The position numbers and the translations under genes are program-made. A stretch of 64,000 nucleotides of DNA, taken from Actinocatenispora thailandica. GTDB lineage: Bacteria > Actinomycetota > Actinomycetes > Mycobacteriales > Micromonosporaceae. Shown here piece by piece: positions 56,081-62,358 of the stretch; position 1 is the stretch's first letter; every line of letters starts with the position of its first letter. The notes beneath the pieces were generated by a model. It did no database searches. It was given only the letters and a program-made list of their open reading frames with translations, and was not told the DNA's origin. The stretch covers positions 4,772,198 through 4,836,197 of the forward strand of contig NZ_AP023355.1 of the NCBI RefSeq assembly GCF_016865425.1, given 5' to 3'.

Positions 56081-57757
56081 TCAGCGGTGGACGGCGACCA
56101 CCCGGTACAGCTCCGGGTCCTCGTCCTTGTACACCGACAGCCCGCGGCCCTCCTGCTCGTGCAGCAGCTCGAAGCCGTACTTGTCCTTCAGCGCCTGACC
56201 GAACGCCGGCCCGTTCTGGTAGCGGCGGAAGTGCTTGCCGTAGGTCTTCTCCAGCGCCTCGTCCTTGTCGGTCCGGAACTCGGCGGCGAACATGTCCCCG
56301 GTACGGGCGCACTCGCTGAGCACACTCATCAGCGTGTGCTGCGTCTCCTCCGGCAGCGAGTGCAGGAAGAAGCGCATGTAGAACAGCACCGGCCCGTCCG
56401 CGGCGGCCAGCGCCTCGGTCAGGTTCTTGCGCAGCGCCGGCTCGTCGGACACGTCGCAGGCGGTGAACTTGACCCGGTCACCGATGCCGAACTCCTCGGC
56501 CTTGGCGGCGGCGTGCTTGACGCCGACCTTCGACCGGTCCATGCCGAGCACGTTGCGGCCGGCCTTGCCGAACGCGTACGAGTCGCGGCCCTGGCCGCAG
56601 CCGATGTCGATGATCGTGTTCGGGGTGTCCTCGCGGGCGTTGATCGCCTCGAAGAACGTCGAGCCCTCGTCGAAGGTCGCCCGCATGTAGAAGTTCGACC
56701 AGTAGACCTCTTCGCCGTACGACAGCGGCATCAGGCCGGACTGGTCGCTCTTGACCCGGTCCCGCGCCCACTTGAAGCCCGGCTTCGGGGTACGCCAGTT
56801 CTCGCCGTACAGGTGCTCGGCCATCTGCTCGGCGTTGACCGGCAGCAGCCCGCGACCGCCGCAGAAGTCGATCTCCTTGGTGCCCGACCAGTCGCTCCTG
56901 CGCACCTCGGTGGTACCGGCGACACCGAACGGGAACTGCAGCAGGCCCTCGTCGTTGAAGTAGGTGTGGAACAGGTCGATGCGGGTCTCCGGATCGCTGG
57001 TGTCGTGGATGTGCAGCGCGGTGCGCTTGCACTCCACGTCCAGGCCGCTCTCCACCAGCCGGAACGCGATCTCCTGCAGCTCGTCGGCGGAGACCCGGCC
57101 GTCGGTGTGCCGGGACACGTACGCGCAGTCGAAGTCCACGTCGTGACCGATCACGCCACCCTCGCGGACGGCGCCGAGCAGGGTGCCGTAGACGAAGAAG
57201 ACGTCGTACCCGTACGCCTCCTTGACCAGCTCACGGACCTTCCCGTACAGGCCCATGACCTTGTCCTGCCAGTCCGTGTCGAGCTTCTTGGACAACTGGA
57301 GTCGGCCGGTCTGGCCGAAGACGTGACCGTTGGACATCCGACGCTTCAACTCTCCTAGACTGTGTTGCCCGTCATTGTTGGGGCGGAGGAACATCCCGTG
57401 CTTGGCGATGGGCAGGGCGACGTCGTCGACACTGACGGTCAGCTTGTCGCTGGTCTTCACGTACTGCCAGATGTCCTTGATCCGGAAGTGGAAGCGCCGC
57501 GCCTCGCCGTAGTTCCCCCGCTTCACCGGGTCGCTCGCCCAGGTGGCGGCGACCTCGAAGCCGCTGAGCTGAAGGCTCACCCGCACCGGGTCGGCACCTC
57601 GCGGCACCGACACCCAGCCGTTCACCTCACCACCGGTGAACTGCTCCACCAGGCCAACCATGCCCGCCTTGAGCCCGCGCAGCCGATCCACCCGCACGAA
57701 CCGGTACCCGGTCGCTCTCTCGACCAGGCCGTTGACGCGCTGCTTGAGCTGACCCAT
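56081..57757 (-). CDS. LicD-type nucleotidyltransferase fused to a SAM methyltransferase
   Basis: A 558-residue protein. Residues 1-130 form an unknown domain. Residues 180-310 match LicD: FFVYGTLLGAVREGGVIGHD, then VDFDCAY (HDVDFD at 205-210, metal-binding), which in LicD transfers phosphocholine or related groups to wall polymers. Residues 380-500 form a class I methyltransferase with IIDIGCGQGRDSYAFG at 382-397. The fusion suggests a wall or lipid polymer is decorated and then methylated by one chain. ATG 57757 follows GGGAGAG. No signal peptide or membrane span. Confidence 0.85.
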   Translation of the reverse strand: MGQLKQRVNGLVERATGYRFVRVDRLRGLKAGMVGLVEQFTGGEVNGWVSVPRGADPVRVSLQLSGFEVAATWASDPVKRGNYGEARRFHFRIKDIWQYVKTSDKLTVSVDDVALPIAKHGMFLRPNNDGQHSLGELKRRMSNGHVFGQTGRLQLSKKLDTDWQDKVMGLYGKVRELVKEAYGYDVFFVYGTLLGAVREGGVIGHDVDFDCAYVSRHTDGRVSADELQEIAFRLVESGLDVECKRTALHIHDTSDPETRIDLFHTYFNDEGLLQFPFGVAGTTEVRRSDWSGTKEIDFCGGRGLLPVNAEQMAEHLYGENWRTPKPGFKWARDRVKSDQSGLMPLSYGEEVYWSNFYMRATFDEGSTFFEAINAREDTPNTIIDIGCGQGRDSYAFGKAGRNVLGMDRSKVGVKHAAAKAEEFGIGDRVKFTACDVSDEPALRKNLTEALAAADGPVLFYMRFFLHSLPEETQHTLMSVLSECARTGDMFAAEFRTDKDEALEKTYGKHFRRYQNGPAFGQALKDKYGFELLHEQEGRGLSVYKDEDPELYRVVAVHR

Positions 57758-58200: not shown

Positions 58201-58958
58201 TCACGAACCGCCGAAGCGCCCGGCCAGCCGCCGGTACGTGGTGGGAGCCAGCGCGCGGACCGCCACCGGCAACCGCAGCCAGGACGGCGTGAAGGACTCA
58301 TCACGTTCGGTCACGATGCCGCGGACCAGGGTGTCCGCGACCCGCGCCGCCGGCAACGGCCGCGGGCGATGCCGCAGGTAGGCAACCCCGCGGCGATCGA
58401 AGAACGCGGTCCGGACCACGCCCGGCACCAGCACCCCGACCCGCACCCCGAACCGGCCAGCTCGAACCGCAGCGACTCGGCGAACGCGTCCACACCGGCC
58501 TTCGCGGCCGAGTAGACGGCCTCACCCGCCACGCCGGTACGGCCAGCGATCGACGTGACGAACGCCACGTGCCCGGTGCCGCGCGAGACCATCCCCGGCA
58601 GCAGCACCCGGGTCAGCTCGATCGGCGCCGACAGGTTCACCGCCAGCAACCGGGCCACCTGGTCGGCGCTCATCGCGGTGAACCGCCCGGCATGCCCCTC
58701 ACCGGCGTTGTTGACGAGCAGGTCGACCCGGCCCGCCGCGTCCAGCGCGGCACGGGCCAGCTGGGTCACCGCCGACGGCTCGGACAGGTCCGCCGCGAGC
58801 GGGGTACCGCCGGTCATGGTGGCGAGCATCGCCAGCCGCTCGGTGTCCCGGCCGGTCAGGATCAGCCGGGCGCCCAGCTCGGCCAACCGCAGCGCGGTGG
58901 CCCAGCCGATCCCCGAGGACGCACCGGTCACCAGCGCGACCGCGCCACGCACCCGCAT
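58201..58958 (-). pseudogene. SDR family oxidoreductase, one-base frameshift near 58447
   Basis: The N-terminal two-thirds are a classical SDR: LVTGASSGIGWATALRLAEL, LLVNNAGEGHAG, IAGRTGVAGEAVYSAAKAGV with Tyr-x-x-x-Lys. At 58446-58449 the C run is one base short: adding a base continues FELAGSGVRVGVLVPGVV and then the second frame VRTAFFDRRGVAYLRHRPRP to the stop at 58201, giving 252 residues. ATG 58958 follows GGAGGG and overlaps the DMT stop by one base, so they are one operon with the GT28-WS/DGAT gene. The frame is otherwise undamaged; sequencing error is likely. Confidence 0.85.
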
Positions 58959-59851
58959 CAGTCACCCTCCCCCACCTGCTGCCCGGCGCCGACCAGATGC
59001 GGCGCCCGGGTCGCCAGCACGGCGATCCCGAGGGCCATCACCGCCAACGCGATGATCTCACCCAGCACCTCGGCCACCCTCACCGAGATGGTGCCATCCA
59101 GCCAGAGCAGACCCACCCCGATCGAGATCAACGGATCCACCGTGGTGATGATCGCGAGCGCCGGGGAGCCCAGCCGGCCCGCCTGGAAGGTGTTCTGGTT
59201 GAGCAGCACCCCGAACGGGCCGAGCACGCAGATCGCGTACAGCTGCCAGTGGTGGAGCAGCTCCGGGAACCCCTCGGCGAACCGGTTCGACAGGCTGCGC
59301 ACCAGGCCCGCGGTCACCCCGTAGCAGATGCCGGTGGCCAGCGCCAGCGGCAGCGGCCGCCAGCGCTTCGACACCGTCGTCGCCGCGATCAGGCAGGCGG
59401 TCAGCAGCACCGCGAGCCCGATCGCGAGCGGCAGGATGGTGGCCGGCGTCAGGTCCTTGCCACCGGTGTCGGTCGGCCGCGCCACCAGCAGGAACGCCAC
59501 CAGCCCGGCGAGCGCCAGCAACGCGCCGCCGATGCGTACGGCGTCCGGACGGCGGCCGGCGAGCACCGGCGTGAGCAGCACGTAGAACAGCAGGCTGCAC
59601 ACCAGCAGCGGCTGCACCACCATCACCGGCCCGAACCGCAGCGCCGTCACCTGCAACGCGAAGCCGGTCAACGCCAGCACGATCGACCACCGCCACATCT
59701 TCGTGCCCATCAGGTCGGCCAGCAGTGCCGGATCACCGGCACGGCGGGTCGGCACCTGGTGCGTCGCGCGGTACTGCAGGTTCGACGACATGCCGAACGA
59801 CAGCGCGCCGATCACCGCCGCCGGTACGGCGATGAACAGTCCGGGTGGCAT
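58958..59851 (-). CDS. DMT/EamA-like transporter
   Basis: A 297-residue membrane protein with ten predicted helices of the drug/metabolite transporter type (PGLFIAVPAAVIGALSFGMS first; VMVVQPLLVCSLLFYVLLTP; GPFGVLLNQNTFQAG and LAIITTVDPLISIGVGLLWL in the second half). The second half repeats the first in layout, as in EamA proteins. Some DMT relatives flip lipid-linked sugars (ArnE/ArnF, UptA). ATG-type start at 59851; its stop overlaps the SDR start, and it follows the GT28-WS/DGAT gene by 42 bases, so a flippase role for that enzyme's product is plausible. Confidence 0.85.
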   Translation of the reverse strand: MPPGLFIAVPAAVIGALSFGMSSNLQYRATHQVPTRRAGDPALLADLMGTKMWRWSIVLALTGFALQVTALRFGPVMVVQPLLVCSLLFYVLLTPVLAGRRPDAVRIGGALLALAGLVAFLLVARPTDTGGKDLTPATILPLAIGLAVLLTACLIAATTVSKRWRPLPLALATGICYGVTAGLVRSLSNRFAEGFPELLHHWQLYAICVLGPFGVLLNQNTFQAGRLGSPALAIITTVDPLISIGVGLLWLDGTISVRVAEVLGEIIALAVMALGIAVLATRAPHLVGAGQQVGEGD

Positions 59852-59893: not shown

Positions 59894-62358
59894 TCAGCGG
59901 CCCTGAGCCAGCGCGTCGGCGAACGCCGAGCGCAGCGCCGTCGCCAGCGGACCGGCGATGCCACGCAACGACTCGTCGTACAGCACGCAGACGCCGGTGA
60001 CACCGGCGTAGCGCATGATGCCGATCCCCAGCGGCACCCCTTCGGCCAGCGCCACCACCGGGTACACCGCGGTCAGCCGATGACCGGCGATGCGACGCTG
60101 CTGCAGCGGCCCCGGAATGTACGACGCGATCATGTTGAAGAACTGGCTGTTGTACACCCGCTGCGACATCCAGGCATGCACCGGCGCCGGGAACATCCCC
60201 AGCGCGCGCATCACGAACGCCGCCGCGTGCGGCTCACCCAGGTCCATCCGCCGGTGCAGGTCGCCACGGATGCGCTGGATCCGCTCGGTGACGGTCATCG
60301 GGCCGACCGGCAGGTCCACCGACACCACACCGGTCTGGTTGCCGGCGGTCCGGGCGCCACTCGCCGAGGCCATCGCGACCGGCAGCATCGTCCGCAACCG
60401 GTCCGGCGCCGCGCCGTCCGCCACGCCGGCCCGGTGCAGCGCCTCGGCGAGCACCCCGAGCAGCACCTCGCTGCTGCGCGCCCGGTGCCGGCGAGCCGCC
60501 GCCCGCACCTGCTCGGTCGGCAGCGGCACCGTCACCACGCCGCGCCGGTTCGCCGTCAGTTCCCGGTTGAGCGGGTGCCGCGGGGCGCCGGCATTGGTAC
60601 CCAGCTCCCACATCCCGCGCACCACCCGGCTGGCCTGGAACGCCATCCCCTTCAGGGTGCGCGACCGCGGCGACGGGGCACCCCGCCGGCGCGGCGTCCG
60701 CCGCCCCGGCGTCTCCAGGATGCGATCCAGGGTGCCGATCAGCGACAGCCCGTCGCCGATCGCGTGGTGCATCTTGAACGCCAGCGTGCAGCCGGCCGAC
60801 CCGGAGTCACCGGCTCGGCGGACCACCAGCAGCTGCCACGGCGGCCGGCGCAGCGAGACCGGCTCGGACCAGAACCGGTCCAGCGCCGCCGCCTGCTCCG
60901 CGTCGTCGGCCGCCACCACCTCGTGCACGTGGTCGGCCACCCGGATCGCCGGATCCACCACCCAGCCCGGCCGCAGCCAACCGCCGCGGGGCACCACCCG
61001 GCGGCGCAGCGTGGTGAGCACCGGCAGCGCCGCGGCGATCCGCTCCACCAGGACGTCCGCGGTGAGCGGTGCGGCCCCCGGCTCCGGCTCCGCGGTGATC
61101 ACCGCACCGACCTGCTGGGTGATCGACCGGGTCTGCACGTGCAGGAAGAACGAGTCCGGCGGTCGCAGCGGCCAGGCGCGCCGGACCGGGCGGATCTGCC
61201 CGGACGCGATGGCCGGGGGCGGCGCCGGCGGGGCGCTCGCCGCGAGCGCCGGCAGGTCCAGCGCAGCATCGTGACCGTCCAGGTACTCCTTCACGGCGGT
61301 GCTCTCCGCGCCACCGGACCCGCCGGCCGCGGCACGGGCCGACACCAGCGCGGTCAGCTGCGCCGCCGTCGAACACGTCTCGGACAGCCCGGACAGGCCC
61401 ATCAGCGCGGCGTTCGCCGCACCGTGCGCGGCGATCGGCCGGAACATCACCACCGGGCGGCCGGTGGCGAGCGCCTCCAGCGAGGTCGCGCCGCCCGCGT
61501 TGGTCACCACCAGGTCCGCCGCCCGGACCAGCGGCGCGGTGTCCGCCACCCAGCCCAACGGCAGCAGCCGCTCCGCCGGCAGGCCGCGGGCGCGCAGCGC
61601 GGCGCGCAGCCGCTCGTTGCGACCGCAGGCAACCACCACCTGGATCGGGCCGGCGGCGGCGAGCAGCGCGTCGACCGCCTCGGTGACCGCGCCGAAGGCG
61701 TACGCCCCGCAGGTCACCAGGACCACGAAACGGTCCGCGGGCAGGCCCAGCTCGGGCCGCTCCAACTGCGGGTCGCCCGGGTAGTACCGGCGCTCCACGG
61801 TCGGCACCGTCGCCCGCGCCGCGATGCCCGGCTCGGCCAGCTCGGCGGCCGGCAGCGCGGCCGGATGCATCACGAACGTCGCGTCCAGGTCGCGGTAGAG
61901 CCAGAACGGGTGCGGCGCGAAGTCCGACACCCAGGCCCCCACCGGGACCGGCAGCAGCCGGTGCCGGCGCAGCCAGGACAACCCGGCCGAACCGAGCGGG
62001 TAGGTGGACAGGATCAGGTCCGGATCGAACCGCTCGACCTCGGTGGCGAGCCGCCGCCCGGCCCAGGCCGCCAGCGTCGACTTGGCGGCCGTGGCGAACC
62101 AACGATGCCGCCACAGCATCGCGTAGAAGAACTCGTACAGCCAGGGCGTGGTCTGCACGTTCGCGACGTAGACACGGCGGAACAACGGACCGACCCAGCT
62201 GCCCATCGTGTCCAGCGTGTCGATCCACCGGACCTCGCTGCCCGGCCAGTGCCGTTCGACGCTCTCCTCCAGCGCCCGGCCCGTCGCGTGGTGCCCCCGC
62301 CCATGTCGGCCGAGACCACCAGCACTCGGCGCGGTGTCCCGTCAGCACCCGGGCCCAT
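59894..62358 (-). CDS. GT28 glycosyltransferase fused to WS/DGAT acyltransferase, one-base error near 62293
   Basis: About 821 residues after one base is added at 62293. N-domain: MGDG-synthase-type GT28. The start MGPGADGTPRRVLVVSADMG, then GGGHHATGRALEE once corrected, is the family nucleotide loop; VVTNAGGATSLEALATGRPV near 284-303 is the UDP-sugar site. C-domain (from about 400): wax ester synthase/diacylglycerol acyltransferase, with HHAIGDG at about 531-537 (HHxxxDG catalytic motif) and a DUF1298 tail ending LYDESLRGIAGPL. The product would be a sugar-lipid with an added acyl chain made by one chain. ATG 62358 has GGGGGACGG upstream. Without correction it splits into a short 22-residue start and a 770-residue frame starting at 62206. 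Confidence 0.87.

Follow-up and report, generated by a model that had tools for sequence, protein, structure and literature searches.

Background

Bacteriohopanetetrol (BHT) is a central C35 hopanoid; hopanoids are the bacterial counterparts of cholesterol, and hopanes serve as molecular fossils. Among the closest described tailoring systems is the BHT N-acetylglucosamine pathway of HpnI, HpnK and HpnJ, in which a glycosyltransferase acts on BHT; for this system, the passages available from the source mention neither an acyltransferase fusion nor a partner from the short-chain dehydrogenase/reductase (SDR) or drug/metabolite transporter (DMT) families (PMC12583986). A natural BHT lipid that is both glycosylated and acylated, N-acylglucosaminyl-BHT, is known from the Firmicute Alicyclobacillus acidocaldarius, where the acyl group is N-linked to an amino sugar; the accessible portion of the source does not name the enzymes (PMC8537080). 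For the preceding step, the enzyme reducing ribosylhopane to BHT has "not yet been established", and the same partial text that describes HpnI assigns no gene to the activity (PMC12583986).

Here we analyze three adjacent genes in a 64,000-nucleotide stretch of DNA from Actinocatenispora thailandica, which we call the window and to which all unprefixed positions refer. The first gene encodes, in a single chain, a GT28 glycosyltransferase of the monogalactosyldiacylglycerol (MGDG) synthase type and a WS/DGAT acyltransferase. The second encodes a DMT protein and the third an SDR, and all three lie on the minus strand. We are highly confident that these genes belong to hopanoid tailoring. Among the matches listed for open-licence literature, no title or abstract opening concerned a GT28-WS/DGAT protein or an SDR in hopanoid clusters, and no acylated glyco- or phospho-hopanoids of these organisms came up there.

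The fusion gene and its conservation

The fusion gene (59894..62358, minus strand) is open over 815 codons (62338-59894), and in this frame an open reading frame (ORF) and Pfam scan finds four domains, all exceeding their curated cut-offs. These are MGDG_synth (PF06925), the N-terminal half of GT28 (61862..62293; residues 16-159 of protein P0001; E 7e-15; 55.9 bits against a cut-off of 25); Glyco_tran_28_C (PF04101), the nucleotide-sugar half (61442..61726; residues 205-299; E 6e-6; 26.8 against 22 bits); WS_DGAT_cat (PF03007), with its acyl-transfer motif HHAIGDG intact (60578..61168; residues 391-587; E 8e-15); and WS_DGAT_C (PF06974), called a DUF1298 tail in the original prediction (59954..60343; residues 666-795; E 5e-17). 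Among the 44 fusions aligned, out of the 55 that we found (see below), invariant residues are H12 of GT28, E284 and H301 of its donor site, and H537, D541 and G542 of the acyltransferase. The pairing of the two enzymes in one chain, as predicted from the window's sequence, is well founded. Their sharing a frame from position 62358 does not hold in this assembly: the ATG at 62358 (VLVVSADMGGG...) is out of frame with the sequence from HHATGRALEE... onwards, the span 62358-59894 being 2465 bases, which is not divisible by three. The frame is broken by one base near the start; in frame with the remainder, a start codon first occurs at 62206. It is important to consider that gene calls were made by a simple codon-usage script and that starts may be misplaced.

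HpnI belongs to another glycosyltransferase family than GT28. The N-terminal domain of the fusion shares fold and sequence family with diacylglycerol glycosyltransferases of the MGDG synthase/UgtP type (MGD1, 4x1t; 9wde), and the C-terminal domain shares fold and HHxxxDG motif with WS/DGAT acyltransferases (TIGR02946; 6chj). Both 6chj and 4x1t were Foldseek matches of an AlphaFold2 model of the fusion protein of Actinocatenispora comari (predicted local distance difference test 90.2, predicted TM score 0.85), the nearest named relative of the window copy at 90% identity. However, the GT28 part is fused to an acyltransferase in a hopanoid genomic context, and it falls far below the equivalog cut-offs of the diglucosyl diacylglycerol synthase type (NF010135, 92 against 500 bits; another model, 51 against 557). 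The WS/DGAT part is likewise below the TIGR02946 cut-off (177 against 309.95 bits).

The original prediction suggested searching relatives for the domain pair and for conserved DMT and SDR neighbors. A scan of genome contigs, which finds close relatives, yielded 68 loci. The fusion is uninterrupted in 55, with hosts that include Micromonospora, Actinopolymorpha, Saccharopolyspora, Kutzneria, Amycolatopsis, Pseudonocardia, Arthrobacter and Sinomonas, and HHxxxDG is exact in 54 of them. A DMT gene lies at most three genes away in 52 of the 55 fusion loci and an SDR gene in 49, in agreement with the predicted neighborhood. Since assemblies other than this one carry the fusion at 55 loci, we rule out that two separate genes were joined by an assembly error, a possibility that the original prediction had raised. 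Twelve further loci were called as GT28 alone (ten in Amycolatopsis, L093, which is cut by a contig end, and the far relative L098), and one (L099) has only far-related acyltransferases; L098 and L099 were matched at 25% identity over one domain only. In plasmids, nine records carry one or the other domain, and none covers 80% of the query.

In a tree of GT28 domains, a branch with support 100/100 separates the fused and the GT28-only domains from the rest. The final version of this tree excludes L015_oth and L009_oth, which were mis-picked genes on long branches, and the duplicate L008. In the first version, six GT28-only rows from Amycolatopsis stand beside Amycolatopsis fusions, so these genes have probably lost the acyltransferase. 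We also considered a single hopanoid-specific GT28 lineage, which was weakly rejected: the GT28 domain of the fusion does not group in one clade with the stand-alone GT28s from hpn clusters (approximately unbiased test, p-AU 0.028).

Two observations concern Amycolatopsis. In five of its fusions (L075, L076, L078, L079 and L086), the acyltransferase seems to hold about 50-160 extra residues between its halves, judging from tblastn gaps. In its GT28-only loci (L080, L081, L083-L085, L087-L091), the DMT neighbor is mostly kept, and the fetched flank holds no hpn gene.

Association with hopanoid genes

The flanks of 48 of the 55 fusion loci encode one or more of Shc, HpnH, HpnE and HpnC/D, and those of 30 loci encode three or more. 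Representatives pass the NCBIfam cut-offs for Shc (TIGR01507), HpnH, HpnE, HpnC and HpnD, while HpnG and an HpnG-IspH fusion are recognizable but below the HpnG cut-off. For the other seven fusion loci, as well as the ten GT28-only Amycolatopsis loci, a squalene-hopene cyclase over the cut-off is encoded elsewhere in the genome. A cyclase match was obtained in 20 of the 22 genomes tested and not in the genomes of L098 and L099; the match in the genome of L093 is a fragment under the cut-off. Within the window's family, a cyclase is present in all eight genomes that carry the fusion or parts of it, compared with 35 of 121 overall (p about 3e-5, uncorrected for kinship), and three of these eight are also among the 20 matching genomes. 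In 74 genomes negative for HpnH, no row spans both domains. Across the genomes sampled, then, the fusion never occurs in one that lacks hopanoid genes.

The window's genome (7.4 Mb, a single contig) has its cyclase at C1:5656998 and the operon near C1:4832000, so that the core hpn genes are 0.8 Mb away. In this hpn region HpnC, HpnE, Shc and HpnH score over their cut-offs, HpnD is just under, and HpnG is recognized by likeness only.

Some features of hpn clusters are recorded here as observations. The gene at L033:12467-14029, with similar genes in other hpn clusters, joins an HpnG-like part to IspH, and thus a hopanoid nucleosidase to an enzyme of the methylerythritol phosphate (MEP) pathway. 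The polyprenyl synthase of another hpn cluster (L050:15590-16597) reaches 426 of the 450 bits required by NF041169, the model of the family 2 encapsulin cargo polyprenyl transferase, which hints at an encapsulin link. A second HpnH gene occurs in the window's genome (G000) at C1:925296-926249 (L163), with no other recognized hpn gene within about 9 kb, and the genomes of the family that we label f19 mostly have two.

The SDR gene is largely complementary to HpnO

To follow the SDR independently of the fusion, we used the intact A. comari protein as a query (E<=1e-45) against 345 genomes, all of the same class. The SDR occurs in 62 genomes, once in each, and HpnH in 83; 58 genomes have both, 4 the SDR only, 25 HpnH only, and 258 neither. 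The four SDR genomes without HpnH are drafts of 68-91% completeness, and all four have an HpnO-like aminotransferase, so every one of the 62 SDR genomes has HpnH or HpnO. Of the 58 genomes with both, the SDR gene and hpnH share a contig in 38 (in 34 within 21 kb) and are on different contigs in 20; the four far-apart pairs are those of the window's genome and of three genomes from the family f20. By our tally, the SDR accompanies HpnH in 12 actinobacterial families. Among the genomes reached through the fusion and GT28-only loci, the SDR was found in 27 of 29, which amount to 24 different genomes since three were reached twice; the misses are again the genomes of L098 and L099. In GT28-only Amycolatopsis, the SDR gene lies 7-11 kb from the cyclase gene in nine of ten genomes, and the two are on different contigs in the tenth.

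The aminotransferase adjoining hpnH in f20 clusters is presumably HpnO, a label that we give by sequence likeness; HpnO-like proteins occur in 42 of the 345 genomes. Among the 83 HpnH genomes, 44 have the SDR only, 23 HpnO only, 14 both, and 2 neither (Fisher p 6e-9, uncorrected for kinship). All 29 HpnH genomes of f20 have HpnO, and 51 of the remaining 54 have the SDR. The pattern is thus mostly one of f20 against the rest, and few independent events underlie it. Ribosylhopane has two fates, the HpnO reaction and conversion to BHT. Despite the above caveat, the complementarity points to this branch point, and we judge it rather probable that the SDR is the ribosylhopane reductase that makes BHT. 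The proposed reaction would be the reduction of a carbonyl with NAD(P)H.

We tentatively regard f19 as Frankia-like and f20 as Streptomyces-like. By a hand count, f19 supplies 31 of the 58 genomes with both SDR and HpnH. In two f19 regions that we read, the SDR gene is at the hpn operon without a GT28 or DMT gene, so the SDR does not need the sugar step. The vesicle envelope of Frankia contains BHT and its derivatives (PMC4058466); if f19 is Frankia, this genus would possess the SDR but not the sugar module. In f20, the SDR occurs in seven of the 29 HpnH genomes; all seven have a GT28 gene within about 10 kb, away from hpnH, and six also have a DMT gene in that region. In the original prediction, the SDR optionally reduced the finished glycolipid; its conservation extends further than that of the fusion, and it probably acts before the glycosyltransferase.

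The DMT and SDR genes of the window

The gene order of the original prediction was confirmed: 42 bases separate the fusion gene from the DMT gene, and the SDR gene overlaps the latter by one base. The DMT gene (58958..59851, minus strand) is intact and encodes a DMT family transporter of 297 aa, a proposed flippase, that matches NF038012 with 103 bits against a cut-off of 50. Its ten predicted membrane spans could not be established, as a hydropathy scan gave eight merged blocks, some of them long enough for two spans. The gene for the candidate ribosylhopane reductase (58201..58958, minus strand) is frame-broken: an ORF of 215 aa covers 58958-58311, the match to intact relatives shifts frame after about residue 175, and homology continues in the other frame to about 58204. 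Downstream of it, a gene at 56081-57757 (minus strand) encodes a 558-aa protein with a LicD-like part, which is below the Pfam cut-off, and a methyltransferase domain; it has the same place in A. comari and genome G050, with about 93% identity.

Cyclase regions of the window's family and PAP2-WS/DGAT proteins

We examined 33 of the 35 cyclase regions in the window's family, with tallies made by hand from printed rows. A stand-alone GT28 is present in 15 regions, the fusion in one, and a WS/DGAT protein of 660-711 aa in ten, or 26 in total; a DMT gene is present in 25 and an SDR gene in 22. The seven regions without GT28 or WS/DGAT comprise two that are cut short (L105 and L110), L111, where the cyclase gene has no other recognized hpn gene around it, and four of the window's genus, including the window's own. 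These four have core hpn genes and lack GT28, DMT and SDR genes, since the module of this genus has a separate location, that of the window operon and its counterparts.

Three of the ten long WS/DGAT proteins were checked (L109:1308-3296, L108:3438-5546 and L128:16043-18097), and each is a fusion of a PAP2_3 domain, which we take to be Aur1-like, to WS/DGAT. Hopanoid clusters thus contain a second head-group domain linked to this kind of acyltransferase, which suggests that PAP2-WS/DGAT proteins may be equivalents of the GT28 fusion for phospho-head-groups. A quick unrooted tree of WS/DGAT domains sets those of the GT28 fusion and of PAP2-WS/DGAT proteins apart from 15 of 18 other WS/DGATs in the sample (support of 96 in the approximate likelihood ratio test, SH-aLRT); the remaining three fall with the PAP2-WS/DGAT proteins.

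Proposed pathway and alternative explanations

From the domains, gene order, association with hopanoid genes and SDR/HpnO complementarity computed above, we infer the following substrates, order of steps, sugar transfer, acylation site and flipping. The operon would serve as a module that tailors C35 hopanoids during their biosynthesis in actinobacteria. Ribosylhopane would come from the core enzymes HpnC, HpnD, HpnE, Shc, HpnH and HpnG, and the SDR would reduce it to BHT in a branch alternative to that of the HpnO aminotransferase. The GT28 domain would transfer a sugar from a UDP-sugar to BHT, and the WS/DGAT domain of the same chain would transfer an acyl group from acyl-CoA to the glycosyl-BHT, on a hydroxyl of either the sugar or the side chain. 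The DMT protein would flip the product to the outer leaflet. That acylated glycosyl-BHT is known from Alicyclobacillus makes this type of product realistic. We lean towards the pathway as a whole, and its parts vary in confidence. Action of GT28 on BHT is a step that we think has good chances of being correct. We would give even chances to acylation of a glycosyl-hopanoid by WS/DGAT, and the role of the DMT protein as a flippase, suggested by gene context, is a more tentative proposal. An acylated glycolipid is thus still the best guess for the product, as in the original prediction. However, the neighborhood, the co-occurrence and the complementarity with HpnO indicate that the lipid is probably a C35 hopanoid (BHT), and diacylglycerol as the acceptor is probably wrong.

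It is important to emphasize that a number of observations weigh against the proposed pathway. With regard to the operon, it is unlinked to hpn genes in four genomes of the window's genus, and two of its three genes are frame-broken in the window. The fusion is rare, occurring in only one of the 76 class genomes positive for HpnH or SDR (G330, where it adjoins hpnH and the SDR gene), and single-domain matches to GT28 or WS/DGAT occur in 37 of the 74 HpnH-negative genomes. Because the hopanoid-linked GT28s do not form one clade, the sugar or acceptor may differ among them. HHxxxDG is missing in five of 12 PAP2-WS/DGAT proteins, all five from the genus g18, so acylation is dispensable somewhere. 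With regard to the neighbors, a PDB sequence search found no solved structure related to the DMT protein, and the sequences nearest to the SDR (a short-chain oxidoreductase, FabG and ribitol dehydrogenases) include no clear favorite. As to its distribution, 25 of the 83 HpnH genomes are without the SDR, and related genomes are not independent; f19 and f20 supply 61 of the 83, so that the Fisher values overstate certainty. The SDR is absent from 22 of the 29 HpnH-positive f20 genomes, and BHT is among the hopanoids determined in what, from the part of the source available, appears to be work on Streptomyces coelicolor (PMC10301674). Should S. coelicolor be one of these 22, BHT must also be formed by a different route. 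Finally, Methylobacterium reduces ribosylhopane too, according to a title cited in PMC12583986.

Among the alternatives, the one that survives best is compatible with the others: in the window's organism, the operon may be decaying, both frame breaks being real and the pathway lost there. In its favor, two single-base breaks lie within three adjacent genes, the two broken ones being intact in A. comari (L032) and genome G050 (L137), and the other genes matched in the 14 kb compared with these two are each in one frame. However, both breaks are in G/C-rich runs, in which sequencing errors are common, the protein around each break is still 90-94% identical to intact relatives, and HpnC, HpnE, Shc and HpnH of the same genome are full-length and over their cut-offs. 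We regard such a loss as rather unlikely; the breaks may come from recent decay or from errors of sequencing in these runs.

A second alternative keeps the hopanoid module and shifts the roles within it. The SDR might oxidize or epimerize something else, be it the sugar or a hydroxyl of the side chain; alternatively, the WS/DGAT domain might acylate BHT hydroxyls directly and leave the sugar free. SDRs have broad substrates, the nearest PDB sequences are a mixed set, and the two f19 regions place the SDR at the hpn operon in the absence of GT28 and DMT. That same arrangement speaks against a sugar-modifying SDR, however, and the complementarity with HpnO points to the ribosylhopane branch point; we consider this alternative improbable.

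WS/DGAT enzymes act on diacylglycerol. That GT28 glycosylates diacylglycerol and WS/DGAT acylates the resulting glycosyl-diacylglycerol, with the hopanoid link incidental or reflecting joint membrane remodeling, is quite improbable: the closest named families are indeed diacylglycerol glucosyltransferases, and the fusion is the sole WS_DGAT_cat match of the window's genome, to which any triacylglycerol-type acylation would therefore fall, but the models for such enzymes are far under their cut-offs, every fusion locus or its genome has hopanoid genes, and the fusion is absent from the 74 HpnH-negative genomes.

Implications

The preferred reading, in which the operon tailors a C35 hopanoid, can be extended to a more general proposal, which we regard as possible though somewhat doubtful. 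The SDR as the missing actinobacterial BHT reductase, the single-chain glycosyl/acyl fusion and the DMT protein may together form a portable module that is rebuilt with different head-group domains, namely GT28 of more than one lineage or PAP2, and that makes acylated glyco- or phospho-hopanoids. The hopanoid setting gives a context to the otherwise puzzling pair of GT28 and WS/DGAT. As the SDR gene groups with HpnH and is largely complementary to HpnO, the BHT-forming step is directly testable. If the proposal is true, tailoring with a sugar and an acyl group by the fusion would change the reading of actinobacterial BHT-derived biomarkers.

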